A stretch of DNA of 64,000 nucleotides, from the NCBI RefSeq assembly GCF_017355785.1, contig NZ_JAFEWE010000010.1, forward strand, positions 62,001 through 126,000. Direction: 5' to 3'. A program made the translations under genes and the position numbers. The DNA comes from Desertivirga arenae (lineage in GTDB: Bacteria > Bacteroidota > Bacteroidia > Sphingobacteriales > Sphingobacteriaceae). Positions 10,526-59,150 of this stretch are shown piece by piece (positions within the stretch are counted from its first letter, which is position 1; the number at the start of each line of letters is the position of its first letter). The notes under the pieces were generated by a model. That model made no database searches. It saw only the letters and a program-made list of their open reading frames with translations, and was not told where the DNA came from.

Positions 10526-10561
10526 TGGTAATCTTATTATAATTCGATCTTAAAAAACTTC

Positions 10562-39986: not shown

Positions 39987-41462
39987 TTATGCAATAGCTT
40001 CGAGCCAGCCTTTATAAGACCTATGAACCATGGGATGGGCTGCAGGCGTATTCACTTCCTTTCTGCTATTTAACATCTTCAACTGATCTATACTTTCAAA
40101 AAGACCGATTCCTAAACCAGCCAGGTATGCTGCACCTAAGGCGGATACATCAGGCATCCCCATATGGACAACATTTTTCTCCAGAAGATCTGCCAAAAAT
40201 TGCAACACGAATTTATTCTTTGTAATGCCTCCGTTAACCATTAACTCCTTGAGCGGAATACCCGTGTCTGATTCCATAGCTGAAATTACATCTTTAATTT
40301 GATATGGGATTGATTCGAGTGCCGCGCGGATAATGTGGTTTTTATTAGCACCAAAGGTAAGACCAGCAATAGAAGCCTTTCTATTCATCTGCCAGTAAGG
40401 AGCACCCAAGCCACTGAAAGCAGGAATAATATATACCCCATTATTGTTATCAACAGAAAGAGCAATAGCTTCTGTTTCCATACTATCTTTTATGAGCCCC
40501 AATTCGTTTTTAATCCACTCTATTGTAGCGCCACAGGAAACAATTACCCCTTCCAATGCATAATCAACCCTATCTTTTGAACTCCAGCATACAGTTCTGA
40601 TCATACCGCTTCCCGATGCAGGAGGTAATTCACCAACATTCATCAGGATGGAACAACCTGTTCCTAATGTTGCTTTTGCCGTGCCAGGAGAAAAACAACC
40701 CTCCCCGAATGCCGCAGCATGAGAGTCACCTATCATCGACCAAATTGGAATCTTTAATTCAAAAATCCCATCGAAGTCAGACTCTCCAAAATAACTAGAG
40801 GAAGGCCTGGGTTCAGGCAATTTGAGCCGGGACAAACCAAAAGAATTTAATAGTTCGGCATCCCACTTTAATTCCGCCAGATTGAAAAATAATGTTCTGG
40901 ATGCATTCGTATAGTCTGTAAAATATTTCTGTCCATTAGTTAAGCGGAACAGCAACCAGGAATCTACAGTACCGAAATAGGCGCGTCCTTCATCTACTGC
41001 TGTTGTTACAGCTGCGTTATTTTCGTAAAGCCACAACAACTTAGTACCTGAAAAATAAGGATCTATGATCAGGCCGGTTTTGGACTGTACCACCTCATTC
41101 ATTCCCTGATCCTTTAACCTCTCACATATTTTAATCGATCGTTTGCATTGCCAAACTATGGCATTGTGTAAAGGTCTTCCCGCCTCGTCCCAAATCACAA
41201 ATGTTTCTCTTTGGTTAGAGATTCCACAAGCTTTTATATCAGTGATCTGTCCACCCTTGTCCCTGAATTCTTTTATGCAGTCTCTTACAGAAGCCAGCAC
41301 GTTCTGGTAGATTCCTTCCGGATCTTGTTCAACAAATCCATCCCCGAAATACTCTGTTTTGAGAGGCGCCAATCCCCTCGAAAAAACCTGTCCTTTTTCA
41401 TCAAATACAAGGGTTTTTGTACTGCTGGTTCCCTGATCAACAGAAATTATAAATGAGTTCAT
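39987..41462 (-). CDS. FGGY-family carbohydrate kinase, glycerol-kinase-like
   Basis: The 491-residue protein has FGGY landmarks and is closest in motif to glycerol kinase: DQGTSSTKTLVFDE, GISNQRETFVIWD, LIIDPYFSGTKLLWLYE and VNGGITKN. It overlaps the ABC permease stop by TGATG, so it is part of the importer operon. The isomerase and split transketolase upstream suggest its substrate is a ketose made by the isomerase, as in the apulose kinase step of apiose catabolism, and not glycerol. No glycerol facilitator or GlpD is present. The specific assignment is inferred. Confidence 0.85.
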   Translation of the reverse strand: MNSFIISVDQGTSSTKTLVFDEKGQVFSRGLAPLKTEYFGDGFVEQDPEGIYQNVLASVRDCIKEFRDKGGQITDIKACGISNQRETFVIWDEAGRPLHNAIVWQCKRSIKICERLKDQGMNEVVQSKTGLIIDPYFSGTKLLWLYENNAAVTTAVDEGRAYFGTVDSWLLFRLTNGQKYFTDYTNASRTLFFNLAELKWDAELLNSFGLSRLKLPEPRPSSSYFGESDFDGIFELKIPIWSMIGDSHAAAFGEGCFSPGTAKATLGTGCSILMNVGELPPASGSGMIRTVCWSSKDRVDYALEGVIVSCGATIEWIKNELGLIKDSMETEAIALSVDNNNGVYIIPAFSGLGAPYWQMNRKASIAGLTFGANKNHIIRAALESIPYQIKDVISAMESDTGIPLKELMVNGGITKNKFVLQFLADLLEKNVVHMGMPDVSALGAAYLAGLGIGLFESIDQLKMLNSRKEVNTPAAHPMVHRSYKGWLEAIA

Positions 41463-42436
41463 CAGTCGTTCTTTGAATTAGATTTATCAATAATTACAGC
41501 AAGGAGAATTACAGCACCTTTTACCACTTGCTGCCAGAAAGGCGATACATTTAGCAGCACAAGTCCATTATTCAAAACTCCAATAATAATTGCTCCCAGA
41601 ACCGTTCCTAAAACACTTCCTTTTCCACCGGCCAGAGACGTTCCGCCTATAACCACCGCAGCTATAGAATCGAGCTCGTAACTCACCCCAGCATTAGGCT
41701 GAGCGGAATCTAAGCGGGATGTTACCAAAATGCCACCTGTTGCAGCCAGGCCTCCTGCAATTGAATAGACTACTATTTTTACCTTGTTAACATTAATCCC
41801 GGATAGCCTCGATGCACTTTCATTACCGCCGATAGCATAGATATACCTACCCAACCTGGTTTTATTGGTAATTACCCCGGCAATTGCAACCACTATAGCA
41901 GATATCCATACGGGGACAGGAATACCAAAAAGCCAGCCTGTACCAAGATATGCAAACTTCTCTCCCATACCAGAGATCGGAAATCCTTCCGTGTACAGGA
42001 ATGTAAGGCCCCGGGCAATAGTAAGCATCGCCAGAGTGGCTACAAAGGGAGGGACTTTGAATTTCGTAATTACCCAACCATTAAAGCCTCCTAAAGAGAA
42101 TCCCAGTAACAAACCAATAACAATAGCTCCTAATAATGTAAAACCAACGAACAAATCAGCCGAGGGTAAAGGTATTCCATTTTTAAGGAGACCTGCAGTG
42201 ATAGCACCACACAGTGCAAGTACAGAACCAACAGAAAGGTCAATTCCTGCAGTCAGAACAATCAAGGTCATTCCTACGGAAATGGTGATGTTTACAGATA
42301 TCTGCCTCATCACGTTCCATCCGTTAGACATCGTAAGAAACTTATCTGACAGAATGCTTATTAATAAACACAGTATCAGAAGTGCAATTAGTGATTGGAA
42401 TTTAACCAGATATGGCTTATATAATTTCAGTTCCAT
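41462..42436 (-). CDS. Rbs-type ABC sugar transporter permease
   Basis: The 324-residue integral-membrane protein has about ten hydrophobic segments and family landmarks: GMTLIVLTAGIDLSVGSVLAL, GLLLGFSLGGFNGW, GGNESASRLSGINV and SLAGGKGSVLGTVLGA. It forms the inner-membrane channel with the double ATPase upstream (8-base gap). Its partner binding protein is at 44605. Confidence 0.95.
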   Translation of the reverse strand: MELKLYKPYLVKFQSLIALLILCLLISILSDKFLTMSNGWNVMRQISVNITISVGMTLIVLTAGIDLSVGSVLALCGAITAGLLKNGIPLPSADLFVGFTLLGAIVIGLLLGFSLGGFNGWVITKFKVPPFVATLAMLTIARGLTFLYTEGFPISGMGEKFAYLGTGWLFGIPVPVWISAIVVAIAGVITNKTRLGRYIYAIGGNESASRLSGINVNKVKIVVYSIAGGLAATGGILVTSRLDSAQPNAGVSYELDSIAAVVIGGTSLAGGKGSVLGTVLGAIIIGVLNNGLVLLNVSPFWQQVVKGAVILLAVIIDKSNSKND

Positions 42437-42443
42437 TAGAAGT

Positions 42444-43952
42444 TTAAATTGAATTTGGAATAGCAGCTTTTAGAATAATTTCTTCGCTCGCCTCTGCAAT
42501 AGGTATTTCGGCAGTCACCACCCCTTCACTCATAACAAGTACCCGGTCTGAAACTGCAAGGATTTCAGGAAGCTCGGAAGAAACCATAATAATACCCATT
42601 CCTTTATCAGCAAGGCTTAGAATAAGCTTATAGATTTCATTCTTAGCATTGATGTCAATACCCCGTGTCGGTTCGTCCAGCAGTAATACTTTAGGATTAG
42701 TAGCTAGCCATTTAGCGATAACGATCTTTTGCTGATTGCCCCCACTTAAACTATCTGCTGTTTGCTTTACCGAGGATGTTTTAATCTTCAAGTCTTCGCG
42801 GTACTTCTCACATAATTTCGATTCTTTTCCGTCATTGAGAAGTACACCAAGTGTTTGATTCTCCTTAAGTGTTGTGATACCTATGTTTTTCTGAACATCT
42901 AATCCAAGTACGAGTCCATCCTTTTTCCTGTCCTCGGGCACCAAAGCAAGACCTGCTTTGATAGCACTGGAAGAGGAAGTTATGGGCACTATCTTTCCAT
43001 CCATTGTAATTTCCCCTTTGGCAAGCTTGGGATGCAGTCCGAAGATCGTTTCCAGAAGTTCTGTTCGTCCCGCACCCATTAAGCCAAAGATTCCCAGTAC
43101 CTCCCCTTTCTTCAATGAAAAAGAAATGTCTTTAAGAAAGTCTTCGGTTTTTCTATTAGGATTTTTTAAGGACAGATTTTTAACACAAAGCACGTCCTCG
43201 GATGTACACTGAAGGTCTTTACGACGGATCAGGTTGATTTCTCTTCCCACCATTTTCTGAATGATGTCATCTGTCTTCATTCCATCCATCCTTCCTGATT
43301 CGATCATCTTCCCATCCCTAAGAACAATATACCGGTCGGCTATCTTGAATAGCTCATCCAGCTTATGCGAAATGTAAACTATGGCTTTGTTTTCACTTCT
43401 GAGATTATTAATGATCTCAAACAGCACCTTCACTTCACTTTCAGTAATGGCCGAGGTCGGCTCGTCCATTATAATCACTTCTGATTCTGTTAAAAGCGCC
43501 TTCGCAATTTCAACAATTTGCTGCTGTCCAACCTTAAGGTCGACGATTAAGGTATCAGGCTCTACCTTTAGCTTTAGCTTTTCCAGCAATTCACGAGTTT
43601 TATTTCGCATTGCTTTTTTATCTAAAGCACCAAAAGATGTTTCCATTTCCCTTCCCAGGAATATATTTTCGGTGATACTTAAATAAGGGATAAGGTTTAG
43701 CTCCTGATGGATGATAGCTATACCACATTCCTGAGCTTCTTTAGGATTTGAGAAGCGAACTGTATTTCCTTTGAAAATAATCCGGCCCTCATATTCAGGA
43801 TAAACTCCCGACAAGATTTTCATTAAGGTAGACTTGCCTGCTCCGTTCTCTCCAATTATTGCAGTTACTTCAGCTCCATGAATTTCGAGTGTTATATTTT
43901 CCAAAGCTGTTACGCCTGAAAAACGTTTGGTTACATTCTCTACAACAAGCAT
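42444..43952 (-). CDS. Rbs-type ABC sugar transporter ATPase (duplicated)
   Basis: The 502-residue protein contains two ABC domains. The first has Walker A GENGAGKS (34-41), signature-like LKVGQQQ and Walker B VIIMDEPTSA. The second has the degenerate Walker A GLMGAGRTE and an intact LSGGNQQK signature, the usual asymmetry in RbsA/MglA proteins. It powers uptake of a monosaccharide through the adjacent permease. Confidence 0.96.
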   Translation of the reverse strand: MLVVENVTKRFSGVTALENITLEIHGAEVTAIIGENGAGKSTLMKILSGVYPEYEGRIIFKGNTVRFSNPKEAQECGIAIIHQELNLIPYLSITENIFLGREMETSFGALDKKAMRNKTRELLEKLKLKVEPDTLIVDLKVGQQQIVEIAKALLTESEVIIMDEPTSAITESEVKVLFEIINNLRSENKAIVYISHKLDELFKIADRYIVLRDGKMIESGRMDGMKTDDIIQKMVGREINLIRRKDLQCTSEDVLCVKNLSLKNPNRKTEDFLKDISFSLKKGEVLGIFGLMGAGRTELLETIFGLHPKLAKGEITMDGKIVPITSSSSAIKAGLALVPEDRKKDGLVLGLDVQKNIGITTLKENQTLGVLLNDGKESKLCEKYREDLKIKTSSVKQTADSLSGGNQQKIVIAKWLATNPKVLLLDEPTRGIDINAKNEIYKLILSLADKGMGIIMVSSELPEILAVSDRVLVMSEGVVTAEIPIAEASEEIILKAAIPNSI

Positions 43953-43962
43953 ATAGGCTTTT

Positions 43963-44601
43963 TTATTTAGTTAAAAACTTGACTTGAACAGGTGTAAGTG
44001 TAATTTTACTGGTATCCAGAAACTTCTTGTTTAATTCAATTGCTCCAACAAAGCTTATCCGGGATCCGGCGGCAACTGTTTTCTTGAATGATGGAATTAC
44101 TTCTTCTCTAATGATCTTATTGATTCCGGCAGATACTTCATTAAATTCAGTAGTATTATCAAAGGCATTCATATTCAATAGCCCAGAAGCGTCTCTGACT
44201 GCGTTCCCGTAAACATATTCGGTTTCTATTTGCAGGTTCTGCGTTTCTGCACCTGCTTGTGTTTTTACAGTAACCGTATTTTCATTTACCGCCAGCACTT
44301 CGCCTTCTCCTTTGATCATAAAATATTGAAGGTTTCCTATCCCTAAGGCGTGAGCATAAGTATTAAAAGTTCTATCTTTATCCGCATGCATCTCCTGCAT
44401 CAACTGGTTAACCTCAATGGCCTTTCCCAGATTAGGAATAAGCTTGCTATCCCAGAACTCTCTGCTGTATTTAGTTGTATTGAACTTTGTTCCTACTCCC
44501 TGAGCTTTAACCTCGCTTAATTTCCGGATATATACAGAGTTATATCCAACTACCGCAACAAGAACAAAAGCTACAAGTAATTTTATATTTCTTCTATTCA
44601 T
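43963..44601 (-). CDS. DUF2291 family protein associated with an ABC sugar importer
   Basis: The 212-residue protein has one N-terminal membrane segment (residues ~8-25) followed by a periplasmic domain with DUF2291 features: TYAHALGIGNLQYFMIKGEGEV and YVYGNAVRDASGLLNMNAFDN. DUF2291 genes are recurrently found beside Rbs-like importers, but their function is not established. Here it sits between the binding protein and the ATPase (3- and 10-base gaps), suggesting a periplasmic accessory to this transporter. Confidence 0.82.
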   Translation of the reverse strand: MNRRNIKLLVAFVLVAVVGYNSVYIRKLSEVKAQGVGTKFNTTKYSREFWDSKLIPNLGKAIEVNQLMQEMHADKDRTFNTYAHALGIGNLQYFMIKGEGEVLAVNENTVTVKTQAGAETQNLQIETEYVYGNAVRDASGLLNMNAFDNTTEFNEVSAGINKIIREEVIPSFKKTVAAGSRISFVGAIELNKKFLDTSKITLTPVQVKFLTK

Positions 44602-44604
44602 AGC

Positions 44605-45543
44605 TTAGTTCTTAGTAATATAGTTACGAACATTTTCTCCGGTTACCATCTCAACTGCAACTGGTACTTTTTGGGGGAAATCCCGTTTCCCATTAAAATA
44701 TTTCTGAGCGTAGAGGGCTGCTGTCTCTGCCATAATTTTAGGGTACTGCATCCCAGTAGCCATTACCTTACCCTCCTTTATAGCCTGCAATGCATCGTCA
44801 GCACCATCAAAGCCAAAAACTTTTACCCTATTGGCCTTACCAGCTGCCGCAAGAGCCTGGTAGGCTCCCATTGCCATTGCATCATTACCACAAAAGACAG
44901 CATCAATATCAGGATGCGCCTGAAGAATGGACTCCAGCACCTCCATCGCCTTGTTTCTATCGAAGTCTGCACTCTGCTGTGCTACCATCTTCAAGCCGGG
45001 GTAATTATCTACTACGCTGTGGAATCCTTTTGAACGGGCCCAGGTATTATTGTCACCCACCAGACCTAGAAGCTCAACGTAATTGCCTTTCTTTTTCAGG
45101 CTCTGCACAAAGTACTTCCCAATGGCAATGCAACCAGAGTAGCTATCAGAAAGGATCTGAGATGTAGCAGCTTTTGTGGAATTCACCTCCCTATCCATAC
45201 AGAAGACAGGAACTCCGGCCTCTTTTGCTTTCATTACATTGACAATAGAACCATCAGCATCGGTAGAGTTAAACAGGATGGCATTATATCCGGAGGTAAT
45301 AGCATTCTCAAAATGGTCAGCCTCTAAAGCTGTATTATTTTGAGAATCAAATATTTTCGTTTCGTACCCCAAAGCTCTGGTCTTAGCTGCTGCAGTTTCG
45401 GCAAGCACTACAAACCAGGGATTATTGAGAGTAGATACGATAACTGCCACTTTCTTTGGTGTGTTTTCGGTAGATTGATTCTTACATCCTCCCGTAATCA
45501 CAATAAGCACGAGTAGAAAGAGTATATTAATAATTCTCTTCAT
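44605..45543 (-). CDS. Rbs-type periplasmic sugar-binding lipoprotein
   Basis: The 312-residue protein has a lipobox (VLIVITGGCKNQ), so it is a lipoprotein, then a type I periplasmic-binding fold: VAVIVSTLNNPWFVVLAETA, FNSTDADGSIVNVMKAKEAGVPVFCMDREV, and DAVFCGNDAMAMGAYQAL. It delivers a monosaccharide to the RbsAC-like complex. Unlike the two proteins at 16909 and 20440, this one has an export signal and its matching permease and ATPase. Confidence 0.94.
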   Translation of the reverse strand: MKRIINILFLLVLIVITGGCKNQSTENTPKKVAVIVSTLNNPWFVVLAETAAAKTRALGYETKIFDSQNNTALEADHFENAITSGYNAILFNSTDADGSIVNVMKAKEAGVPVFCMDREVNSTKAATSQILSDSYSGCIAIGKYFVQSLKKKGNYVELLGLVGDNNTWARSKGFHSVVDNYPGLKMVAQQSADFDRNKAMEVLESILQAHPDIDAVFCGNDAMAMGAYQALAAAGKANRVKVFGFDGADDALQAIKEGKVMATGMQYPKIMAETAALYAQKYFNGKRDFPQKVPVAVEMVTGENVRNYITKN

Positions 45544-45587
45544 TGAGGATAGATTGGTTAGTAAAAGGTTATAATTCTGGTGTTTAT

Positions 45588-46553
45588 TTATTGCAAGAGC
45601 TTTAGTGCTGCCGCTGCAATGCCTTCACAAGAAAGCCCGTAGTGTCTGAAAATGTCGTTCTGAGAGCCTGTAACAGTATACTCATCAGGAATTCCCATTA
45701 TCTTAAACTTGTTTCTGTAATTGTTTTCCATTAGATATGAAGCACAAGCTTCACCTAAGCCACCGTATACACTGTGTTCTTCGACAGTAATAATTGGTTT
45801 TCCCATTTCGGCCAGCTGACTTAAAAGCTCGTAATCTAAAGGCTTTATCGTGTGCATACTTACTACTGTAGCATCAATATTATTATCTACAGCCAGCTGC
45901 TCTGCTGCTTCAAGTGCAGGTTGAACGGTTTCACCTGTCCCGATCAGCACAATGTCTTCCCCCCTGCGTATCACCCTTCCCTTTCCGAACTGAAACGGAG
46001 CTTCTATCTGACCAGGAAGGTCTGGCACATTCTTCTTACCGAAACGGAGGTAAACCGGCTGCCGTAAGGCCGAGGCCTGGAGAATAGCTTGCTCAGTTTC
46101 GTAATTATCTGCAGGAGCAGCTACAATAATATTATTCACTGCCCGTAGTGCCGCAAAATCGTGCAAGCTATGATGAGTAGAACCCAGTGCTCCATAACTT
46201 ACTCCTGCACTTATTCCAATTAATTTTACAGGATTATCTGAATAAGCTACGTCATTTTTAATTTGTTCAAATGACCGTGCGGTAAGGAAACAAGCCGGGG
46301 ACACTGCAAATACTTTCTTTCCAGCAGATGCTATTCCAGCTGCAACGCCAACAAGGTTCTGCTCTGCAATACCGATCTCAATATGTTGTTTGGGAAACCT
46401 GTTTCCAAAGGGCACGAGCTTTCCTGAGCCCCGGGAGTCACTTGTTACTACAATAATATCTTTATCTGTTTCGGCTAGCGATTGGAGGGTCTCAGAAAAT
46501 TTTTCCAGATTCGCCATTCCCATGACTGTATTTTTATCTGTTATTACTTCCAT
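45588..46553 (-). CDS. Transketolase C-terminal subunit (split transketolase)
   Basis: The 321-residue protein holds the pyrimidine-binding and C-terminal domains: HIEIGIAEQNLVGVAAGIASAGKKVFA with the conserved Glu, HHSLHDFAALRA and ITVEEHSVYGGLGEACASY. It starts 6 bases after the N-terminal subunit and would pair with it to make a TPP-dependent enzyme. Split transketolases of this sort include apulose-4-phosphate transketolase (AptAB) and many uncharacterised relatives. With an isomerase and kinase in the same operon the acceptor cleavage of a ketose phosphate is likely. Confidence 0.92.
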   Translation of the reverse strand: MEVITDKNTVMGMANLEKFSETLQSLAETDKDIIVVTSDSRGSGKLVPFGNRFPKQHIEIGIAEQNLVGVAAGIASAGKKVFAVSPACFLTARSFEQIKNDVAYSDNPVKLIGISAGVSYGALGSTHHSLHDFAALRAVNNIIVAAPADNYETEQAILQASALRQPVYLRFGKKNVPDLPGQIEAPFQFGKGRVIRRGEDIVLIGTGETVQPALEAAEQLAVDNNIDATVVSMHTIKPLDYELLSQLAEMGKPIITVEEHSVYGGLGEACASYLMENNYRNKFKIMGIPDEYTVTGSQNDIFRHYGLSCEGIAAAALKLLQ

Positions 46554-46559
46554 GTTTTT

Positions 46560-47384
46560 CTAGATTAAGGTTAATGCTTCATCGAGTTCGTGTTGCGCCT
46601 TCTCAAACTCTTCTGCGGTTGGAACTCCATGGTGCCATTTCAAAACATCTTCCATATAGCTGATCCCTTTTCCTTTAACGGTATGAGCCAGTATAAGACT
46701 AGGTTTGTCTTTTTCAAAAGGTATAGCTTCGAAAGCCTCCTTTAATTGCTGAACATCATTACCATCTATATGTCTCACAGCCCAACCAAAGCTCTCAAAT
46801 TTTTGATCTATCGGGTCTGTATTACAAACCTCGGAGGTCCTTCCTGTAATCTGAAGTTTGTTATGATCTATAATCGCACAAAGATTATCCAGTTTATAAT
46901 GAGAAGCTGTTAAAGCAGCTTCCCAATTTGATCCTTCTGGTAATTCCCCATCACCCAATAAGGTAAAGACTCTATAGTCTTTTTCATCGAGACGGGCAGC
47001 AATAGCTGCACCAACACTTAAAGGCAGTCCGTGACCTAAAGCCCCGGTATTTTGCTCTACCCCATTTACTTTTCGAGTCGGGTGACCGATATAATGTGAT
47101 TTATACTGGCAAAGCGTTTCCAGATCTGATTCGGGAAAAAAGCCTTTATCTGCCAACACTACAAACAGCGCTTCAACACAATGCCCCTTGCTTTGTATGT
47201 AACGATCTCTATCTGGCGACTTAAAATTATCAGGACCTACATTTAAAACCTGATTATATAGTACATTGAGGATATCGATACATGATAAGCTACCGCCGGT
47301 GTGTCCGGCTTTAGCTTTATAAATGTATTTAAGTATCTTTTTGCGATATTCTACCGATTTAGCTTTAAGTTCCCTCTCTGTCAT
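46560..47384 (-). CDS. Transketolase N-terminal subunit (split transketolase)
   Basis: The 274-residue protein holds the TPP diphosphate-binding domain: KAGHTGGSLSCIDIL, GALGHGLPLSVGAA, and the thiamine motif GDGELPEGSNWEA (GDG at 144-146) ending with Asn175 in DHNKLQ. It lacks the pyrimidine domain, which is the next gene. Together they make one transketolase. A housekeeping transketolase would usually be a single chain, so this pair is probably pathway-specific. Confidence 0.92.
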   Translation of the reverse strand: MTERELKAKSVEYRKKILKYIYKAKAGHTGGSLSCIDILNVLYNQVLNVGPDNFKSPDRDRYIQSKGHCVEALFVVLADKGFFPESDLETLCQYKSHYIGHPTRKVNGVEQNTGALGHGLPLSVGAAIAARLDEKDYRVFTLLGDGELPEGSNWEAALTASHYKLDNLCAIIDHNKLQITGRTSEVCNTDPIDQKFESFGWAVRHIDGNDVQQLKEAFEAIPFEKDKPSLILAHTVKGKGISYMEDVLKWHHGVPTAEEFEKAQHELDEALTLI

Positions 47385-47398
47385 GTCTCTATGTAGTT

Positions 47399-48811
47399 TT
47401 AGTTGTTGTGTTGGTAGATCTCCCAGCCTAAATAATTACCAAAAGCTTCCTTGAGCACAGCAGCAGTTCTGGATGCATTCATTACAACATGATGCTCAAA
47501 TCCGTTCCTGCATACATAGTGCATCAATCCCTGAAGGTCATTGATCTTGGCAACTGCACGGTTTCCGAAAGTGTTCAGGGCATCGTCTGTCAATTCGCCT
47601 TCACCAAAATATGCTTTAATAACACCCCGGGTATCATCTGTGCTGATCCTGCCATAAGTTAAAGGCATTGCAGGCGTACGACCAGCCAGGGCACCATAAG
47701 TATTTTCAACACCTACGGTTGTACCAAGTATCGGTGCATTACTGATCTCAATGTCGGGAAGGAAAGATTTTGCCCAATTGCCGCAATGAAATAAAACGCA
47801 CTTCTCTTCGTCGGAGGCGTAATTATTATTCCAATCTACTAAAGCGCTGGGAGAACCTGATGCCAATTGCATAGCATACATGGTAAGGGTTCCGGTAACG
47901 TCAACCTCACATGCACTCGGCAGCATATTTTCACTCATCATACTCATGCTGGTACATACGTTACAGCCGTAATTCTTTTGTAGCGAGGTCCAGCACTGTA
48001 TTGCTGTTGCATCTAAAGAATTGTCTTGCATAAAATCATGCAGCACTACATCCAGTTTTGCAATTTGAATTAAGGCATCCGAAGGAGTTTGTCCGGGATT
48101 GGCATAGTTTGTAATCTTCTGCAAGCGCTCCTGTACCACGATATCATCTTTCGTCAGCTTGTTTGCGGCCCCGAGAATTTCAGAAAGGTCAACAGTAACT
48201 ACAGAGATACCGTGTCTTTGGAGAATCTTCTCACTATATCGAACAGTATTGAAACCACCTGGTCTTGCACCGACAGCCCCGATACGAACCGTTCTGAGAC
48301 CTTTAACGACACGACAAACGCCGATGAAATTTTTAAGATCTTCCTGAAAAGAAGGATCAGAAGGTCTGACAACATGTTTTGTAGTCAGGGTATACTTTAT
48401 ACCATATTGGTATAGGTTGTTACACACCGAAATCTTTCCGCACCATGAATCGCGTCTGCGCGCAACATCAAGTTTGTCTAAATCATCCGGATATGCCTGA
48501 ATTAGCACAGGAACATTTAATCCTGCTAGCTTAAGAGTCTCCGCCACTCCTCTTTCATCTCCAAAGTTCGGTAATACAACAAGAACACCTACGATCTCCT
48601 CTTTGTGCTTTTTAAACAGATCTGCACACCTCTGAGCATCCCGAAAGGTTTCGACCCCTCCGAGTTTCGATTCCCAGTCTTCCAGAAGTATTGGTTTTAT
48701 ATTTTGCTTTCCTAATTCTTCGATTATTTCCGTTCTTGCATCGGCTACCAGTCTGTCGGGAAAGAAATCCCTGTTGCCTATAATAACACCTAAACTAATT
48801 TGTTCTTTCAT
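47399..48811 (-). CDS. L-fucose/L-arabinose isomerase-fold protein
   Basis: The 470-residue cytoplasmic protein has the fucose-isomerase-like fold. Likely metal-site residues are in SACEVDVTG (Glu302/Asp304), VDWNNN (Asp326) and LFHCGNW (His342). Members convert aldoses to ketoses; some relatives have lost isomerase activity. It is the first enzyme after the DeoR gene (7-base gap) and precedes the split transketolase, which makes aldose isomerisation the expected first step. No fucose-specific kinase or aldolase accompanies it, so L-fucose is not the indicated substrate. Confidence 0.85.
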   Translation of the reverse strand: MKEQISLGVIIGNRDFFPDRLVADARTEIIEELGKQNIKPILLEDWESKLGGVETFRDAQRCADLFKKHKEEIVGVLVVLPNFGDERGVAETLKLAGLNVPVLIQAYPDDLDKLDVARRRDSWCGKISVCNNLYQYGIKYTLTTKHVVRPSDPSFQEDLKNFIGVCRVVKGLRTVRIGAVGARPGGFNTVRYSEKILQRHGISVVTVDLSEILGAANKLTKDDIVVQERLQKITNYANPGQTPSDALIQIAKLDVVLHDFMQDNSLDATAIQCWTSLQKNYGCNVCTSMSMMSENMLPSACEVDVTGTLTMYAMQLASGSPSALVDWNNNYASDEEKCVLFHCGNWAKSFLPDIEISNAPILGTTVGVENTYGALAGRTPAMPLTYGRISTDDTRGVIKAYFGEGELTDDALNTFGNRAVAKINDLQGLMHYVCRNGFEHHVVMNASRTAAVLKEAFGNYLGWEIYQHNN

Positions 48812-49694: not shown

Positions 49695-51278
49695 CTAATG
49701 CCCCGTAAATATCAGATAGAGTAATACCATAACAATAACCAGGGCTGCCCAAGCTATTTTAACCCTTGCAGTTGGCTTCGCAATAACAACAGTCTCGTCT
49801 GCAATATAAACCTGAGGAGTTCTGTCCGTTAAGGAAATTAGCATGGCTAGTAATAATAAGAACAGGAAGATGTAGAATGATAACAATAGGTAATGCGGCC
49901 AGAATGGGAACTTGTCAGGAGTTAATATCCACAAGTAAACTACTCCTACTGTAAGGCTAAAGATAGACCCCGCAGATAAAGTGAAGTTTACTGCCTTTCG
50001 TGTTGTCCGCTTCCAAAACACAGTCAGCAGGAACACAACGGACAATGGAGGAGCTATAAAGCCTAAAACCGATTGAAATACGTCAAAAAGATTAAGTCCC
50101 TTAATATTGTCTATTGCCAGAACCATTAATACGGCAAATACGCATCCGGCCAGGATGGTCATTCTTCCAGTACGGATGATCTGTTTGTTAGATGCTGCAG
50201 GATTGATCTTTTTAACATAGATGTCCATAGTAAATACCGTGCTTAATGAATTAAGAGAAGAACCGATCGTTCCTACAAGCACAGCAATTAATACAACGAT
50301 CACCAAACCATTTAGCCCCGGAGGAAAAAGATTAGTAACCATAGTCATATAGGCCTCTGCCGGATCTTTCAAATTTGGAAACAAGATATAACAAAGCACT
50401 CCAGTCAGGATAAACAACGGCAACGAAAGGATCTTCAACCAGCCGATAAAGTTCACTCCCAACTGACCTTGTTCAAGGTTCTTGGCGCCCAAAACTGACT
50501 GAACCATAGCCTGGTCTGTACAGAAAAAGGCTACAGCTGCCACAGGATAACCAAGTAGGATGGCGGGCCAGGGGTATTTGGGATCAGTTGCAGGGTGTAT
50601 TAAATTCCAATAATCGGCAGGAACACTTGAATATACTTTATCCAAGCCTCCAACCTTACTTATACCAAGAATAGTAAGCGTTAAAGAAACACCAATAAGC
50701 AGGATCATCTGGAATACATTTACCTTCGCTATTGCTTTTAATCCGCCAGCAAAAGCAAACAAACCTGCAAACAGTACTAGTACAATTACAGACTGCCACA
50801 TAGCAATGCCCAGGATCTGACGAACAAGAAAACCACCAGCAAAAAGACCTAACGATAGCCAGGAGATTAGAATCTTGATCAATGCATACCAGGCGAGGAT
50901 ATTTTGAGTTGAATCTCCATATCTTTTACCCATAAATTCAGGCATGGTTGATACTTTGGCAGCTAGGTATTTTGGAGCAAAAACCAAAGCCAGAAGCATA
51001 AGGAATACGAATGCATACCAGTCAAAGTTTACTGCAACAATCCCCGTGCTGTAGCCGATACTGGCGAAGGCTAAAAGCATAGAGGGACCAACATTGGTCC
51101 CCCACATGTTGAAGCCTATACTAGACCAGCCCAGGGACTTGTTAGCTAAAAAAAGGGTCTCGTCGTCTTTCTTTTTGTCGACGAAACTTGCTCTGTAACC
51201 TATAACAATTAATATCACCAAATAGGCAACAACAATTGCATAGTCGTAAATGGTTAGTTTTGATACAATTCCGTTCAT
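49695..51278 (-). CDS. Sodium:solute symporter (SSS/SLC5 type), copy 1
   Basis: The 527-residue membrane protein has about 13-14 hydrophobic segments with SSS features: LFLANKSLGWSSIGFNMWGTNVGPSMLLAFAS and LVGTIGSSLNSLSTVFTMDIYVKK. It belongs to the SGLT-like sugar branch. It follows the Gfo/Idh gene by 2 bases. It gives this locus a sodium-driven uptake path in addition to the ABC importer. Confidence 0.92.
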   Translation of the reverse strand: MNGIVSKLTIYDYAIVVAYLVILIVIGYRASFVDKKKDDETLFLANKSLGWSSIGFNMWGTNVGPSMLLAFASIGYSTGIVAVNFDWYAFVFLMLLALVFAPKYLAAKVSTMPEFMGKRYGDSTQNILAWYALIKILISWLSLGLFAGGFLVRQILGIAMWQSVIVLVLFAGLFAFAGGLKAIAKVNVFQMILLIGVSLTLTILGISKVGGLDKVYSSVPADYWNLIHPATDPKYPWPAILLGYPVAAVAFFCTDQAMVQSVLGAKNLEQGQLGVNFIGWLKILSLPLFILTGVLCYILFPNLKDPAEAYMTMVTNLFPPGLNGLVIVVLIAVLVGTIGSSLNSLSTVFTMDIYVKKINPAASNKQIIRTGRMTILAGCVFAVLMVLAIDNIKGLNLFDVFQSVLGFIAPPLSVVFLLTVFWKRTTRKAVNFTLSAGSIFSLTVGVVYLWILTPDKFPFWPHYLLLSFYIFLFLLLLAMLISLTDRTPQVYIADETVVIAKPTARVKIAWAALVIVMVLLYLIFTGH

Positions 51279-51280
51279 AC

Positions 51281-52366
51281 TTAGAGGCTTATGCTTTCAG
51301 GAGATATATCAAACTCATTCAGAATATCCTTTATCTTTACAGGCATACCCGTCTGAAGTGTCCGGTCCATCGCCTGCAATAAAGCAATAGTTCCAATACC
51401 TTCTTTGATGTCCGGGTATGCAGTGAACCCTTCGTTTAGGCTATCAGCAAAATAATCAAGGTAGTTTTGATATTCTCCGGCGTGGTGACTCTGACCTTCG
51501 AAACGGAAATAATGTTTCATTGTATCGTCACCCCAACGAACTATTTTCTCCTCCCCGGTCTTATCGGTAACAGAATAACGTAGCTCGTGATAATCAGCTT
51601 GAGAAGCCCCTTCGGTGCATCTTAAGATAACAGTCATTCCACTATCGCGACTTGCTGGCTGAGTTGGACCAGTGTAAGCACCGCTAACCCTGGCAATCCT
51701 GCCATCACTTGCTTTGAAGATAAAATGCATGGTATCTTCATTTTTCAAACCAGCGGTTACACCATTACTGCTGATCATACCATATCCCATCACCTCCTCT
51801 ACATTTGGCAAATACCATCTGATGAAATCTACAGGGTGACTTAAGCCACCGTATAGCCATTTGAAAGAATTAAGCAAAGACCAGCCCTTCTTTAAAAACC
51901 AACGATGATCCGCGTGGTAATGACTCTCAACAGTAATTAACTCTCCAATTAATCCAGCTTCAAAGTCTTTGCGCTGACGTTTGGCTGGTTCAAAAAACCT
52001 TGAGCTCTGACCTACAAAAGCTTTTTTACCTGTTTTCTCCGCAACCTCAAGCAATTCATTTGCTTGAGCAAGGTCATCGATAAAAGGTTTTGTACATACT
52101 ACGTGCTTGCCGTGGAGCATAGCTTGCTTAATATGTTCAGCATGAAGATGGTCAGGTGTATAAATAGCAATTACATCTATCTCCGGATCATCCAGCATAT
52201 CCTGGTATTTCGTAGTGTAATTATGAAAATCGAACTCCTTTGCGCGCTGTTTACACGTATCCTCATTCATATCACAAATAGTTTTCAACTCCCATTTTTC
52301 GCTGCTTAGTGCAGCGGAGATTGTGCTTCTGCCTTCCCCAAGGCCAAGTATTCCAAGTTTTAGCAT
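51281..52366 (-). CDS. Gfo/Idh/MocA family oxidoreductase, copy 2
   Basis: The 361-residue cytoplasmic protein has the Rossmann start LGILGLGEGRSTISA, DVIAIYTPDHLHAEHIKQAM and VVCTKPFIDD in place of EKP. The C-terminal domain includes GGLSHPVDFIRWY. It probably oxidises or reduces a sugar. The coupling to an SSS symporter suggests it acts on that transporter's substrate. It is not close to the copy at 15801. Confidence 0.88.
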   Translation of the reverse strand: MLKLGILGLGEGRSTISAALSSEKWELKTICDMNEDTCKQRAKEFDFHNYTTKYQDMLDDPEIDVIAIYTPDHLHAEHIKQAMLHGKHVVCTKPFIDDLAQANELLEVAEKTGKKAFVGQSSRFFEPAKRQRKDFEAGLIGELITVESHYHADHRWFLKKGWSLLNSFKWLYGGLSHPVDFIRWYLPNVEEVMGYGMISSNGVTAGLKNEDTMHFIFKASDGRIARVSGAYTGPTQPASRDSGMTVILRCTEGASQADYHELRYSVTDKTGEEKIVRWGDDTMKHYFRFEGQSHHAGEYQNYLDYFADSLNEGFTAYPDIKEGIGTIALLQAMDRTLQTGMPVKIKDILNEFDISPESISL

Positions 52367-52510: not shown

Positions 52511-55033
52511 TTATTTGTCTGTTCTTTCAAGAAACACCCAAGTTTCATCTGGCTTAGTACCCGGGATGCCTTCCTGGTACTTGCTCATAACCCTATTCCA
52601 CTCTTCTACCCTCGGATTATTCTCTGTCGTTTTGAGATTCAATTTATCCAAGCTCTCCCCTTTCGGAATGCTTATTACCAACATTAACTGCGGACCGTTC
52701 TTAAAAATAAGTAACTGCTGAAACTGCGCATTGCAGAATCCCTGTGATACCTCTGGCCATTTTTTGAACTGCGTAGCGTGGTAATCCAGATATTCTTTCT
52801 GTAACAAAGAATCCTTCACTAGATTAGCTGTTAGGAAAATATTATCCCACTCTTTAACTATTCCATTACCTCCGCAACTCTTCTTCCTGTTAAATTCATA
52901 AAAAGGAGCATTGTAGATCTTGACAGAGTTACCAGGAAACGCGGCTAGTAGTTCACGACGAAGTGATTCTGGATTCTCTATTCGGCCATAGATAACTGAA
53001 TGGTTCTTCCAACGATGTATTTCTACCCCGGCGATTTCGTTCTTCTGACAAAGCGCCTTAATTTTAGCAGTATTATGAGCGTTTCCCGCATCATCGATCA
53101 GCTCAACAACCTTGAAACGCTCAGAATGATTGATCTCTCGCGAGCTAGTCGCCTTGCTCTTGTCCTTAAGCAGGTACTGATAGTTTTTCTCAAGGCCTGC
53201 ATTTAACCGAACGCTATCCGCAACCTGCGGTCCATTATTCTCCCATACGTTACCAGGTCCATTTGCATTCTGAAGATATTTGTCTGTAGTCGTCCAATTA
53301 TTTTTTACAGAGAAATAAGAGGAACCCTCATCGGTGTATAGGTAGAACCAGTGATTAGGGTCGTGCGCATAGGGCGCTTTATAAATACTATCCACACAAT
53401 TCTCAGTTATTACTGAACCCGGTTGAGCAGATAAGGTGTAAATGCCAGCCACATCATACATATGCTTTCCATATCTGACAATTCTGTTCGCTATGATCGA
53501 ATTATCACGCATCGCATTGATGGCCTTCGTCCAACCCCATCCCATAGAAATTCCGGAGTAGGAAACCTCACTGATGTCGTTATGATGAATTTTGATTCCG
53601 CGAACAAAGCCAGTTCCAATACCTACGCATCCCCAATCTTCATTAGTTGCATCTGTAATAAGGTTGTTGCTGATCAATTCATTGGAGCAAACCTCTCTTT
53701 CATCAGCAGGATTGTAAGGTAAATGCACTTCCTGGGCCTCATCTGAAAACTTTCCAACAAGGATTGCCGTTCCTCCAATATCCTTAAATAGATTACCTAC
53801 TATTTTATTATTGTTCGTTCCAACTTTATAATCTAATCCAGTAGAAGCAGTGTGTTCAAACCGGCAATTCTCAAACGCAGTATTATTTGCATAAGATACT
53901 TCCACTGCAGAGGCTGGCCGTCCTACCCATGCCTGATTTTCCAGGGATTTCTTTTCGGGTGTCCCCGGTATTTTCAGCTTGTATGCATCCAGGATGTACA
54001 TTCCGGCCTGATGAGGAACCAGTCCATTTTTTGAGGGATACAACCAGGTAGCATGTTGAAAGGAGATACCTTTAACAAAGACATTGGAAACAGGCCTGTC
54101 GATTGTCCCCTGCATCCTTACTAAGGTTTCTAAAGCAGGAACACGGACATCAGCAGACGACATTATCTCGCCCTGTCTTGGCCAGTAATAGATCTTCGCA
54201 GATCGTCTATCCAAATACCATTCTCCTGGCTCATCCAGGAACTGAATGGCATTGGAAAGAAAAAATGCAGAGTTTCCGGTTTCCTTAGATATCCAGGGAG
54301 CAGGCCATGGATGTTCTGATTGTACGCGGCTTTCTGGTTGATAAAAAGATAACTTCACACTATCTCCTTTCACTTCCGCGGCTTTTACCCTGAGGATCGC
54401 GATTGCCCACCATTGGTGGATAAACATTTCCATTCCCTTTATATTACTCAAGCCTGCTTTAGGCTTCGGAATCCAGCATGTCTCATCCTTTTTGTTCCAC
54501 GAAAGAATCCTTTCCATTAAATCACCCTGGGTATTCTTGGATCTAACTGCCTTTGAATTATTAACCCAAAGCTGTCTGAAGTTAAGAATTTCGTCTCCAA
54601 TTAATGGGGCTTCAGCTTCCCATACTTTTCCCGCTGCCGCAGCGGGAAGACCAGCAACGTCACCTGCTTTCCGCCAACCTTTTACCTGCATTCCGCCACT
54701 CAAAATAGCCTTGTTTTCTGAAGCAGACTGAATGATAGTCGGACTGGAAGGTGTCCCAGAGTCCTCCGGTCTTATAAATAAAGTTTCCTCGAGCTGGTAT
54801 AATCCACTCTTAAGATAAATAGTAATTCCCTTTGCTATTGAAGGGTCAGCCAGGCGTCGTAATTCCCTCGCTTTCCTTAAGGCTATATCAATATGAGCAA
54901 GAGGCTTTTCCTTCGTTCCCGGATTTACATCCGAGCCTGTTGGCGATACCCAGATTTCTGCAGAAAACCCACTAAAACCTATTAAGGAGCAAATAGCGAT
55001 GGTGCAGAAGAATCGTTTGATTGAATTATACAT
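52511..55033 (-). CDS. Parallel beta-helix glycosidase (GH141-like) fused to rhamnose-mutarotase-like domain
   Basis: The 840-residue protein has a signal peptide (1-24) and a right-handed parallel beta-helix region (~25-625) beginning AEIWVSPTGSDVNPGTKEKPL, with stacked Asn-rich turns (NNKIVGNLFKDIGGTAI, GIKIHHNDISEVSYSGISMG). This resembles GH141, whose known members are alpha-L-fucosidase or xylanase. Residues ~640-836 form a different domain: two ferredoxin-like halves, the second (732-836) resembling L-rhamnose mutarotase RhaM with LDYHATQFKKWPEV and NPRVEEWNRVMSKYQ. The whole protein is exported, so the mutarotase-like part would act in the periplasm. The GH141 call is moderate, and the fusion is unusual. 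Confidence 0.75.
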   Translation of the reverse strand: MYNSIKRFFCTIAICSLIGFSGFSAEIWVSPTGSDVNPGTKEKPLAHIDIALRKARELRRLADPSIAKGITIYLKSGLYQLEETLFIRPEDSGTPSSPTIIQSASENKAILSGGMQVKGWRKAGDVAGLPAAAAGKVWEAEAPLIGDEILNFRQLWVNNSKAVRSKNTQGDLMERILSWNKKDETCWIPKPKAGLSNIKGMEMFIHQWWAIAILRVKAAEVKGDSVKLSFYQPESRVQSEHPWPAPWISKETGNSAFFLSNAIQFLDEPGEWYLDRRSAKIYYWPRQGEIMSSADVRVPALETLVRMQGTIDRPVSNVFVKGISFQHATWLYPSKNGLVPHQAGMYILDAYKLKIPGTPEKKSLENQAWVGRPASAVEVSYANNTAFENCRFEHTASTGLDYKVGTNNNKIVGNLFKDIGGTAILVGKFSDEAQEVHLPYNPADEREVCSNELISNNLITDATNEDWGCVGIGTGFVRGIKIHHNDISEVSYSGISMGWGWTKAINAMRDNSIIANRIVRYGKHMYDVAGIYTLSAQPGSVITENCVDSIYKAPYAHDPNHWFYLYTDEGSSYFSVKNNWTTTDKYLQNANGPGNVWENNGPQVADSVRLNAGLEKNYQYLLKDKSKATSSREINHSERFKVVELIDDAGNAHNTAKIKALCQKNEIAGVEIHRWKNHSVIYGRIENPESLRRELLAAFPGNSVKIYNAPFYEFNRKKSCGGNGIVKEWDNIFLTANLVKDSLLQKEYLDYHATQFKKWPEVSQGFCNAQFQQLLIFKNGPQLMLVISIPKGESLDKLNLKTTENNPRVEEWNRVMSKYQEGIPGTKPDETWVFLERTDK

Positions 55034-55228: not shown

Positions 55229-56353
55229 CTATTTTTTATCCGCTTTAGGCTCCTGGTAAATAAAGTTCAATGTGCTTTTTCCAAGATCTTTTGACGTTGC
55301 AACAGCAATTCCTCTTTGTTCTTTCTTATTTACAGCGCAATAAAAGTGGTATACCACACCTTTGTGCTTTACTACAAAGGATTTGTGAGCATAAAGTTCA
55401 TCATAAGGCTCTGAAGATTGTACCAGGTTTTCGCCATTCCAGTCTGTCCAATTCACCAGGTCATTAGAGGCTGCAAATCTGTTGAAGGCTCCCTTTCTAT
55501 CCTGCCAGAAGGCACCGAAATAAAACATTACCCAGATATCACCCATTTTTTGAAGCACCGCATCTCCCGTTATCCCAACCGGATGGTGCATTACAGGTTC
55601 TTCATGAAAACGCTTCCAGCCAACCATATCATCAGAAACTGCCATACCGATCCGTTCAAACCAACGTGTCTTTAAATTATTTTTGGCAGAATCTCCATTG
55701 GCATTATAATACATCACAAACTCATGACCGGTCTTCTTCTCTTTATCCCAGATCACAGAGCTTTTAAACAATTTCCGGTTTTCCCACCAACGTACATCCT
55801 TATCCTTTGAAGTGAATAATGGATTTTCAAACCTTTGCCATTCATGAGGTTTAGATGCATCTTTAGTTGTATGAGCCATACTGATGCTTAGATCTCCAGC
55901 TTCATACCCAGGAGTTGATCCCCCAAAGTAAGACATCCAATATTTTCCATTATGCTTTTGAAGTTTGTAGCTTCCTCCCCATTTCGGATCTTGTAAACCC
56001 GGATAACCGGCTCGCTGACTACCATCCCAAACTAGTGTATCACCAAAAGACATTACCTTTCCAAGGTTCTCCCAATTAAGTAAATTGTTACTCTTTGCCA
56101 ACCACGTTTCGTATCCCCGGCCATTAAAAATCACATAAGTCAAGTACCACTTACTGCCTTTTCGAAACACTGTAGGGCAATCCATTTTCTGTGAATTATC
56201 AGAAGGAACCATCACTAATCCGTATTTGTAAGGAGTCTTCACCTCCTCATAGATCTCCTGCATCTTAGTTTGCGGGATAGGATTACTGGTCTGGGCTTTC
56301 AGAAAGCCGGAGAACGTTAAAAGCGTAAAAATTAAACTATATCTAAGTTTCAT
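55229..56353 (-). CDS. Secreted five-bladed beta-propeller glycosidase (GH43-clan-like)
   Basis: The 374-residue protein has a signal peptide ending near LKAQ and repeating propeller blades: MDCPTVFRKGSKWYLTYVIFNGRG, LQDPKWGGSYKLQKHNGKYWMSYFGG, VGITGDAVLQKMGDIWVMFYFGA and YAHKSFVVKHKGVVYHFYCA. This is the fold of GH43, GH32, GH117 and GH130 families; I cannot place it in one. It follows the GH78 gene by 7 bases and precedes the GH2-like fragment. A glycosidase acting on a pectic or rhamnose-rich oligosaccharide is inferred. Confidence 0.72.
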   Translation of the reverse strand: MKLRYSLIFTLLTFSGFLKAQTSNPIPQTKMQEIYEEVKTPYKYGLVMVPSDNSQKMDCPTVFRKGSKWYLTYVIFNGRGYETWLAKSNNLLNWENLGKVMSFGDTLVWDGSQRAGYPGLQDPKWGGSYKLQKHNGKYWMSYFGGSTPGYEAGDLSISMAHTTKDASKPHEWQRFENPLFTSKDKDVRWWENRKLFKSSVIWDKEKKTGHEFVMYYNANGDSAKNNLKTRWFERIGMAVSDDMVGWKRFHEEPVMHHPVGITGDAVLQKMGDIWVMFYFGAFWQDRKGAFNRFAASNDLVNWTDWNGENLVQSSEPYDELYAHKSFVVKHKGVVYHFYCAVNKKEQRGIAVATSKDLGKSTLNFIYQEPKADKK

Positions 56354-56360
56354 ATGTGTG

Positions 56361-59150
56361 TTAATGTGTAGCAGAAAAACGATAAGTACCGGAACCGACT
56401 CTGACTAGTGCTTTACCGTCTTTAATTCCAAGAAGCTGAGCACCATTCTTCGCACTTAAAGCAGCCCCGCCTTCCTGAATATTTTCTGCCCTGGTGGCAG
56501 GCAAATAAATAGTTGCAGTTGTATTAGCGGGTACAGTAACATTGATTTCGAAACGGTCTGAAGATTTTTTCCAGTCGGATGATATTAATCCATAGGGTGA
56601 ATGATAATCTACTTTTGCTGAGCTAAGGTCTCCTACTACTTGTGGATTGATCTCTATGTCTTTAAAAGCAATAGAACCTTGCGCAGAACGAATCCCACCC
56701 AGCCCGCTATAAAACCACTCCATCAAATGACCCAACATCAGGTGATTGTTAGAAACAGTTGGTAAAGCGGCCCATGATTCTGTTAAAGCTGTTGCTCCCT
56801 TAGCTAGCTGATAACCATAGCCTGGTACATCCGAACGATTATTCATCGCGAAAATAACATCTGAACGACCTTCATTTTCGAGAACTCTTAGCAGATAGCG
56901 ATAACCTATGTCTCCAGCGGTAAGAGCATTACCCCTATCTTTTATATCTTTAATAAGATTCGCTAAAACGGCGGTTCTGTCGGCCGGATTCACAAGATTC
57001 ATATACAATGCCATAGCATTGGCCGTCTGACTTCCGGTGGAATATTGTTTAGTATCCTTATTGAAAAACTTCTGATTGAATGATTCTTTCACCTTGCCAG
57101 CTAATGATCTGAACTTAGCCGCATCTTCCGGAAGGGAAAGCATTTGAGCAATACTATCCATGACAGTCAAATCGTGATAAAAAATTGCTGTACCTGTTAC
57201 TCCCAGTGGAGTTAATTGCGAAACTCCCGGCGGATTTGGTCCCAGATCATACCAGTCGCCTAAGCCTTGACTCAGAATATAATTACTTGACTTACCTTTA
57301 TTTTCGAGATAGGCTATATACTTCTTCATTGCAGGGTAAGCATCTTTAATAATATTTTTATCACCATACCAATTATAAAGATACCATGGCATTAATATAA
57401 GTGTACTTGCCCATTCTGGCGAGTCTCTGAACATATCTCCCCCCCAGGTAAATAAAACATATTCAGGAGCTATTTCAGGTACAAGACCATTAGGTAATTG
57501 AGAGGCTTTTATATCCTGAATAGATTTTCTGGAAAGATTAGCAATATCATACTGATACCGGATAGAACTTCCCATAAGGTGCACCTGCTCCAACCATCCT
57601 AACTTCTCCCGGTGTGGGCAGTCGGTCATTACACTTGCCAGATTGCTTTTAATAGACCAGTCTATCAAGGTATTGGTGCGATTAAACAAATCACTGGAAG
57701 AGGTGAACGAGCCTGCTCCTTCCGCTGCATTTCTAATATGCAAGCCCTTAAGCGCGAGAAGTGTTGATCCAATTGCCTTATCTCCTTCTCCTTCTCCTTC
57801 AGGTGTTGCCCCTTGCACCTCGAGATACCTGAAACCGTAATAGGTAAAGCGAGGCCTCCAGGTTTCAACGCCATCACCCTTAAGGATATAGGTGAAATAA
57901 AAAGGACTGCCAGTCGGTCTCTGATTTACAGATCCTGATCCATCAGCCTTTAGCAATTCAGCAGGAATGATGCGAACAGTATCCCCCTTCTTCCCTTTAA
58001 CTTTCAATTCAACGATCCCTGAGAAATTTTGACCCAGATCATACACCCAGTTACCATTTTTTGCCTGGCTTATTGTGTTTGCAGCAAACTGCTCAAAAAC
58101 CTTAAGTGGCTCCTGAATTTGTGAAATTAAAGATGGCGGACCGTCAACCTGAATAACGCTCTTCCAGCCTCTGTCATTATAACCAGGGGTATCCCAGCCA
58201 ATTTTCTCGAAATTGGCATTATAATCTTCACCCCCGTAAATACTTGAGAAAATAATAGGGCCAGAAGAAGTTTTCCAGCTCGCGTCACTTACCACGTTAT
58301 CTGTAGATCCATCTGTATACTCGATCTGAAATCTCGCAATCATTTTAGGAAAACCAAAGGCTGTTTTTAATTTACGATAACGTCCTTTCACCGGAGGGAC
58401 GTAATAGAAGCCATTTCCTAACATTACGCCTATCGCATTTCCGCCTTGTTTTAATTTAGAAGTAATGTCGAAGGTCACATACTGTGCTTCTTTATCATAT
58501 TTAGTCCAACCAGCATCAAGGAAATGATCATCTACTTTATTCCCATTAATACTTAGCTCAAAATGCCCTAAACCGGCAATAAAAGCAGCGGCTCTTTTTA
58601 CCTTCTTTTTTATTGTAAACTGTTTTCTAAGCAGAGGCAGAACGTTACTGCCCTGGATAATGTCAGGCTTCTTATCTGTAACAAGATTATTAACGGCAGA
58701 GTCTGGTAACTTTTCATAAGCAATCCATTTCGCACCTTTCCAGTCCTCCTTGTTAAACAAGCCCATTTGGAAGAAATTACTTTTTGAACTTACCTGGCTT
58801 CCCTTATTATCCCATACTATTACCTTCCAAAAGTATTTCTTTCCGGCAACTAATGGTTTTCCTTCATATTTTACCTGAATGGACGATAAAGAATTTACTT
58901 TACGGCTATCCCAAACAACTGAACTATTCTTTTGATCGAAGTCGGCTATATCAGAGACAATAATTCTGTAGGCAGTTTGCAGAACACCTCTCTGTAATGA
59001 GCCTAATTCCCACGCAAACCTGGGAGATTTGTTTTCAATCCCTAAAGGATTTGTCTTGTATTCGCACTTCAAACGGTTCACAGTAAGTGACTGAGAGAAA
59101 AGAGAAAACGAAATAAAAATGAGGCAGAATAGAATTGTTAGTTTACGCAT
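56361..59150 (-). CDS. GH78 alpha-L-rhamnosidase
   Basis: The 929-residue secreted protein (signal peptide ending SLFSQ) has the full GH78 arrangement: N-terminal fibronectin-like domain (NPLGIENKSPRFAWEL), the jelly-roll domains (AAAFIAGLGHFELSINGNKV), the (alpha/alpha)6 barrel with VMTDCPHREKLGWLEQVHLMG containing the catalytic acidic residues, and a C-terminal beta-sandwich. It removes terminal alpha-L-rhamnose from glycans or glycosides. It is the third rhamnosidase-type enzyme here. Its upstream region has a -7 box inside an inverted repeat. Confidence 0.95.
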   Translation of the reverse strand: MRKLTILFCLIFISFSLFSQSLTVNRLKCEYKTNPLGIENKSPRFAWELGSLQRGVLQTAYRIIVSDIADFDQKNSSVVWDSRKVNSLSSIQVKYEGKPLVAGKKYFWKVIVWDNKGSQVSSKSNFFQMGLFNKEDWKGAKWIAYEKLPDSAVNNLVTDKKPDIIQGSNVLPLLRKQFTIKKKVKRAAAFIAGLGHFELSINGNKVDDHFLDAGWTKYDKEAQYVTFDITSKLKQGGNAIGVMLGNGFYYVPPVKGRYRKLKTAFGFPKMIARFQIEYTDGSTDNVVSDASWKTSSGPIIFSSIYGGEDYNANFEKIGWDTPGYNDRGWKSVIQVDGPPSLISQIQEPLKVFEQFAANTISQAKNGNWVYDLGQNFSGIVELKVKGKKGDTVRIIPAELLKADGSGSVNQRPTGSPFYFTYILKGDGVETWRPRFTYYGFRYLEVQGATPEGEGEGDKAIGSTLLALKGLHIRNAAEGAGSFTSSSDLFNRTNTLIDWSIKSNLASVMTDCPHREKLGWLEQVHLMGSSIRYQYDIANLSRKSIQDIKASQLPNGLVPEIAPEYVLFTWGGDMFRDSPEWASTLILMPWYLYNWYGDKNIIKDAYPAMKKYIAYLENKGKSSNYILSQGLGDWYDLGPNPPGVSQLTPLGVTGTAIFYHDLTVMDSIAQMLSLPEDAAKFRSLAGKVKESFNQKFFNKDTKQYSTGSQTANAMALYMNLVNPADRTAVLANLIKDIKDRGNALTAGDIGYRYLLRVLENEGRSDVIFAMNNRSDVPGYGYQLAKGATALTESWAALPTVSNNHLMLGHLMEWFYSGLGGIRSAQGSIAFKDIEINPQVVGDLSSAKVDYHSPYGLISSDWKKSSDRFEINVTVPANTTATIYLPATRAENIQEGGAALSAKNGAQLLGIKDGKALVRVGSGTYRFSATH

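Follow-up and report, generated by a model that had tools for sequence, protein, structure and literature searches.

A GH141–Mutarotase Fusion in Desertivirga arenae: A Probable Secreted Bifunctional Enzyme of RG-II Utilization

In the window (the whole 64,000-nucleotide stretch of Desertivirga arenae DNA that was analysed), a single open reading frame joins a GH141 glycoside hydrolase to a tandem unit of the DUF718 mutarotase family. The encoded protein is probably a secreted bifunctional enzyme that degrades rhamnogalacturonan-II (RG-II), a plant pectin, in which protein a periplasmic L-fucose-type mutarotase would be tethered to the fucosidase producing its substrate and would feed anomer-selective import or oxidation. 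The computation shows which domains are present, how they fold, which residues are conserved, that export signals are there, that the parts are repeatedly linked physically and that the setting is one of RG-II use.

Domain Architecture and the GH141 Part

The reading frame is open across 840 codons with no interruption. Its features are listed below.

52511..55033 (−), GH141–mutarotase fusion ORF, 840 aa (ORF read, GH141 and rhaM matches)
54962..55033 (−), N-terminal export signal, residues 1–24, hydrophobic core (sequence and hydropathy; cleavage site inferred)
53171..54964 (−), GH141 catalytic beta-helix, residues 24–621 (BT_1002 match)
54176..54631 (−), GH141 insertion domain (GH141_M), residues 135–286 (Pfam)
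52868..53122 (−), first ferredoxin-like half, residues 638–722 (AlphaFold model, alignment, hhalign)
52520..52855 (−), second half, DUF718/rhaM mutarotase domain, residues 727–838 (Pfam, fold match, alignment)

A preliminary description of this DNA had proposed a secreted beta-helix glycosidase and a RhaM-like domain within one ORF. Both parts of this proposal were borne out: GH141 occupies residues 24–621, the rhaM profile matches residues 744–837, and hydropathy reveals a hydrophobic N-terminal export signal (residues 1–24). A frameshift or assembly artefact as the source of the fusion was ruled out, since a frame of 833–872 aa recurs across independent genomes.

BT_1002 (PDB 5mqp) aligns over its whole chain with residues 24–621 (E 1.9e-210), and the Pfam GH141_M model matches with E 1.5e-70. 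Asp527 and Asp568, which are invariant in an alignment of 27 fused proteins, align with Asp523 and Asp564 of BT_1002, the 41-residue spacing being kept. BT_1002 needs both of these residues to act on chain A of RG-II, where it frees 2-O-methyl-xylosyl-alpha-1,3-L-fucose, a disaccharide (PMC10154630). On the evidence of transglycosylation, GH141 has been proposed to work by a retaining mechanism (PMC12786026). The earlier label "glycosidase" can be sharpened: the hydrolase part is a GH141 enzyme, a predicted RG-II alpha-L-fucosidase of the BT_1002 type.

Fold of the C-Terminal Tandem Unit

The Pfam rhaM profile (PF05336) matches residues 744–837 with E 1.8e-10 and 41.4 bits (cut-off 23.4), and it matches 45/45 aligned homologues. 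PDB sequence searches with the C-terminal part alone gave chance matches or none, so a fold comparison was needed. In the AlphaFold model of this unit (pLDDT 91, pTM 0.85), residues 638–838 form two ferredoxin-like beta-alpha-beta-beta-alpha-beta halves, i.e., the dimeric alpha/beta-barrel unit anticipated from the likeness to RhaM/DUF718. Tandem dimeric alpha/beta-barrel proteins span both halves (172–180 residues, Z up to 10.9).

The best structural match of the second half is L-fucose mutarotase FucM (7byu; Z 12.1 over 104 residues, 2.8 A), followed among mutarotases by RhaM (1x8d, Z 10.0), RhaU (2qlw, Z 9.4) and FA22100 (6hhn, Z 9.3), the ranking of FucM over RhaM amounting to a Z difference of 2. 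The second copy of the fold proposed at residues 640–715 is present in the model as the same fold unit, and its trace in the sequence is faint. This half aligns with DUF718 in register (hhalign P ~1e-3, probability 22%), and the link between these sequences is only suggestive.

Catalytic-Type Residues

The second half carries the motifs Tyr748-x3-His752, Trp759-Pro-Glu, Trp812, Tyr819-Gln820 and Trp832. Tyr748, His752, Trp759, Trp812, Tyr819 and Trp832 do not vary among the homologues (88/88), so that the check advised for His752 and the Tyr/Trp active-site residues turned out positive. In RhaM, the active-site Tyr and His are Tyr18 and His22, which have a catalytic role; a search for literature on DUF718 catalytic residues yielded nothing usable. 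Relative to single-domain DUF718 proteins, the active-site helix contains a three-residue insertion between His752 and Trp759, and the pocket geometry may differ there.

The Tyr-x3-His, Trp-Pro-Glu and Trp set is found in the second half only. The first half lacks the catalytic His/Tyr pair and keeps Trp675, Tyr712 and Cys720. The possibility that it is a second working mutarotase was ruled out by the missing pair together with the weak profile link; it looks like a degenerate partner. Cys720 and Cys767, invariant in 88/88 homologues, are a possible disulfide, which would fit an exported or periplasmic protein.

Recurrence, Fusion and Fission

When the C-terminal domain alone served as query, a scan returned 294 relatives. 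All locus counts refer to the best-scoring 80 of these, and the proportions could be different in the family at large. The mutarotase-like domain is fused to GH141 in 59/80 loci. In a further 17/80 it is encoded by a separate gene near a GH141 gene (10 immediately adjacent, 7 one gene apart), and the ten adjacent genes begin at the end of the GH141 gene. The remaining 4/80 loci, one of which lies close to a contig end, show no GH141 gene up to 8 kb away. By a simple test, a hydrophobic N-terminal segment is present in 20/21 free-standing versions and 57/59 fusions. The tree, in which the root and the long branches are unsure, implies at least 4 changes between the fused and the free-standing state; parsimony gives seven.

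The search for the same fusion, advised at the outset, thus showed that it recurs, with fused or nearby GH141 in 76/80 loci. The GH141–mutarotase pairing is widespread in the BT_1002-type GH141 subgroup and is not peculiar to a single genome. Among 395 genomes sampled from the phylum, 15/18 strong GH141_M matches sit in frames of 833–872 aa, and in a 296-genome sample all DUF718 matches in frames longer than 300 aa belong to frames of this same length. The mutarotase-like domain is missing from BT_1002 itself and from a few more GH141 proteins, which could be read as a chance or single-lineage fusion with no functional meaning. Such an origin is extremely improbable given the 76 loci from several families, the repeated changes of state and the phylum sample.

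The free-standing versions also bear on the nature of the C-terminal unit. It could be a non-catalytic module, serving GH141 in carbohydrate binding, dimerisation or assembly; fucosidases often bear ancillary domains, and both the absence of the His/Tyr pair from the first half and the insertion in the active-site helix would agree with such a role. This is nevertheless unlikely, because the whole Tyr/His/Trp set is invariant in the second half and free-standing exported versions exist, some of them with transporter and oxidoreductase genes as neighbours but no GH141. A pure accessory domain of GH141 would not need such copies.

Two further cases are worth recording. Pedobacter sp. SYSU D00535 possesses a fused copy and a split GH141/mutarotase pair together (L043, L050). 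Elsewhere (L136:1423-1863), an SSF symporter gene is directly followed by the gene of a single-domain DUF718 protein that bears a lipoprotein-like signal of its own; this protein is a candidate exported mutarotase without a tandem half or GH141.

Neighbouring Genes and the RG-II Island

The following genes of the window are relevant to the fusion.

51281..52366 (−), Gfo/Idh/MocA oxidoreductase (homologue in 74/80 homologous loci)
49695..51278 (−), SGLT-type sodium/sugar symporter, SSF (homologue in 75/80 homologous loci)
55229..56353 (−), GH137-like gene (matches positions 7–365 of a 1400-position model)
56361..59150 (−), GH78 alpha-L-rhamnosidase (profile match)
8489–15228 (−), aceric acid hydrolase, with genes of a GH106 rhamnosidase and an L-fucose permease next to it (profile matches)

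Aceric acid is specific to RG-II, and the window can be regarded as an RG-II island because an aceric acid hydrolase is encoded in it (1202 bits, cut-off 950). The L-fucose permease matches with 361 bits (cut-off 280). The GH137-like protein, a second RG-II marker, is free-standing and covers only the first quarter of the model, that of a two-activity RG-II beta-D-glucuronidase/beta-L-arabinofuranosidase.

The genes are arranged in the order GH137-like, GH141–mutarotase, oxidoreductase, symporter, the same as at homologous loci. At two Pinibacter loci (L046, L058) that show no GH141 gene up to 8 kb away, a free-standing tandem mutarotase gene is followed by the oxidoreductase and symporter genes. 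This hints at a link of the mutarotase with the importer that is more general than that with GH141.

Another region (39987–48811 (−)) contains in a row genes of a glycerol kinase-like FGGY kinase, a ribose-type ABC transporter, a split transketolase and an L-fucose-isomerase-like protein. This row could encode a route for a branched pentose (apiose), as would be fitting for RG-II, although none of the apiose models matched and no usable literature on an apiose transketolase was found.

Probable Substrate

The substrate is most likely L-fucose or a fucose-terminated product. Four lines of evidence point to a sugar of the L-fucose type. The tail Q-x-x-(L/I)...G-E-x-W is common to FucM and the fusion and is absent from RhaM, RhaU and FA22100 in the alignment. 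Genes of L-fucose dehydrogenase (356 bits, cut-off 300) and a fuconolactonase-like protein adjoin the fusion in about 20 Flavobacterium loci. A fucose permease is encoded in the window, and the GH141 partner is of a fucose-releasing type. The name "rhamnose mutarotase" stands with respect to the DUF718 family and fold; its sugar is probably wrong, the nearest solved mutarotase being FucM and the hydrolase a GH141 fucosidase. Single-domain DUF718 genes were less informative: the neighbours of the four found in the same genome (three with a fucose-like tail) gave no clue to the sugar, and within the 80 loci no such gene lies near the fucose oxidation genes.

A mutarotase for a different sugar of RG-II (L-rhamnose, L-galactose or a further one freed by neighbouring enzymes), tethered to GH141 for co-localisation only, would accord with the GH78 and GH106 rhamnosidases of the same island and with the good structural match of rhamnose mutarotases. 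It is quite unlikely, however, since the permanent partner is GH141 and not the rhamnosidases, the top fold match is FucM, the FucM tail is kept, and genes for the oxidation of L-fucose and for a fucose permease are located nearby.

Proposed Mechanism

In the preferred scheme, that of a fucosidase with a tethered L-fucose-type mutarotase, the GH141 part would cut the alpha-L-fucosidic bond in RG-II chain A. The substrate of the second activity could be the freed reducing-end L-fucose in the periplasm, alone or still bearing methyl-xylose. GH141 would free one anomer, and the attached mutarotase would equilibrate alpha and beta forms before uptake or oxidation. The tandem DUF718 unit would function as a pseudo-dimer with one working site (Tyr748/His752 with Trp759, Trp812 and Trp832) and one degenerate half. 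The preferred anomer could then be taken up by the SGLT-type symporter and/or used by the Gfo/Idh/MocA oxidoreductase encoded directly downstream. Points against this scheme include the helix insertion, the absence of the domain from BT_1002 and some of its relatives, and the small Z difference between FucM and RhaM. The product of BT_1002 is moreover a disaccharide, and a 3-substituted fucose would have to fit the DUF718 pocket.

L-fucose mutarotates spontaneously, and therefore the benefit of a mutarotase must be kinetic. The mutarotase activity, the identity of the sugar and the reason why speed would matter are inferred from the computed features. A bolder version, possible and yet doubtful, is that four parts co-evolved in RG-II-degrading Bacteroidota as a cassette for cutting, anomer exchange and import: the fucosidase, a deoxysugar mutarotase tethered to it outside the cytoplasm, the oxidoreductase and an SGLT-type symporter selective for one anomer. 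The mutarotase would then act on the released disaccharide MeXyl-Fuc itself, at its reducing end.

Mutarotases are commonly seen as minor cytoplasmic helpers, since aldoses interconvert unaided. Repeated fusion with, and fission from, the glycosidase making the substrate suggests that anomer exchange is rate-limiting outside the cytoplasm in RG-II use. This predicts anomer selectivity in the adjacent transporter or dehydrogenase. GH141 and DUF718 are each already known; the exported tandem form and the fusion are undescribed in the literature searched, where no paper on a GH141–mutarotase fusion was found.

Comparison with Known Systems

BT_1002 shares with the fusion the full-length GH141 match, the conserved Asp pair and the RG-II context, but its chain stops where the mutarotase part of the 840-aa protein starts. 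The only characterised RG-II GH141 enzyme thus lacks a part borne by most members of its subgroup in the phylum sample.

FucM of Acidovorax avenae (DUF718) resembles the fusion in the fold of residues 727–838, the Tyr/His/Trp set and the Q...GExW tail. Solved FucM, however, is a single domain of ~110 aa with no hydrolase, whereas the fusion is exported and tandem and carries the three-residue helix insertion. The L-rhamnose mutarotases RhaM, RhaU and FA22100 belong to the same family and fold and have the Tyr/His and Trp-Pro-Glu motifs; they differ in their lower structural scores, the missing tail and their single-domain form.

NanM is a mutarotase of sialic acid that resides in the intermembrane space of Gram-negative bacteria (PMC8141875). 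It has an unrelated beta-propeller fold, is a separate protein and acts on another sugar. As in the role proposed here, its anomer exchange is extracytoplasmic and comes between release by a glycosidase and import, and NanM is a precedent for mutarotation outside the cytoplasm.
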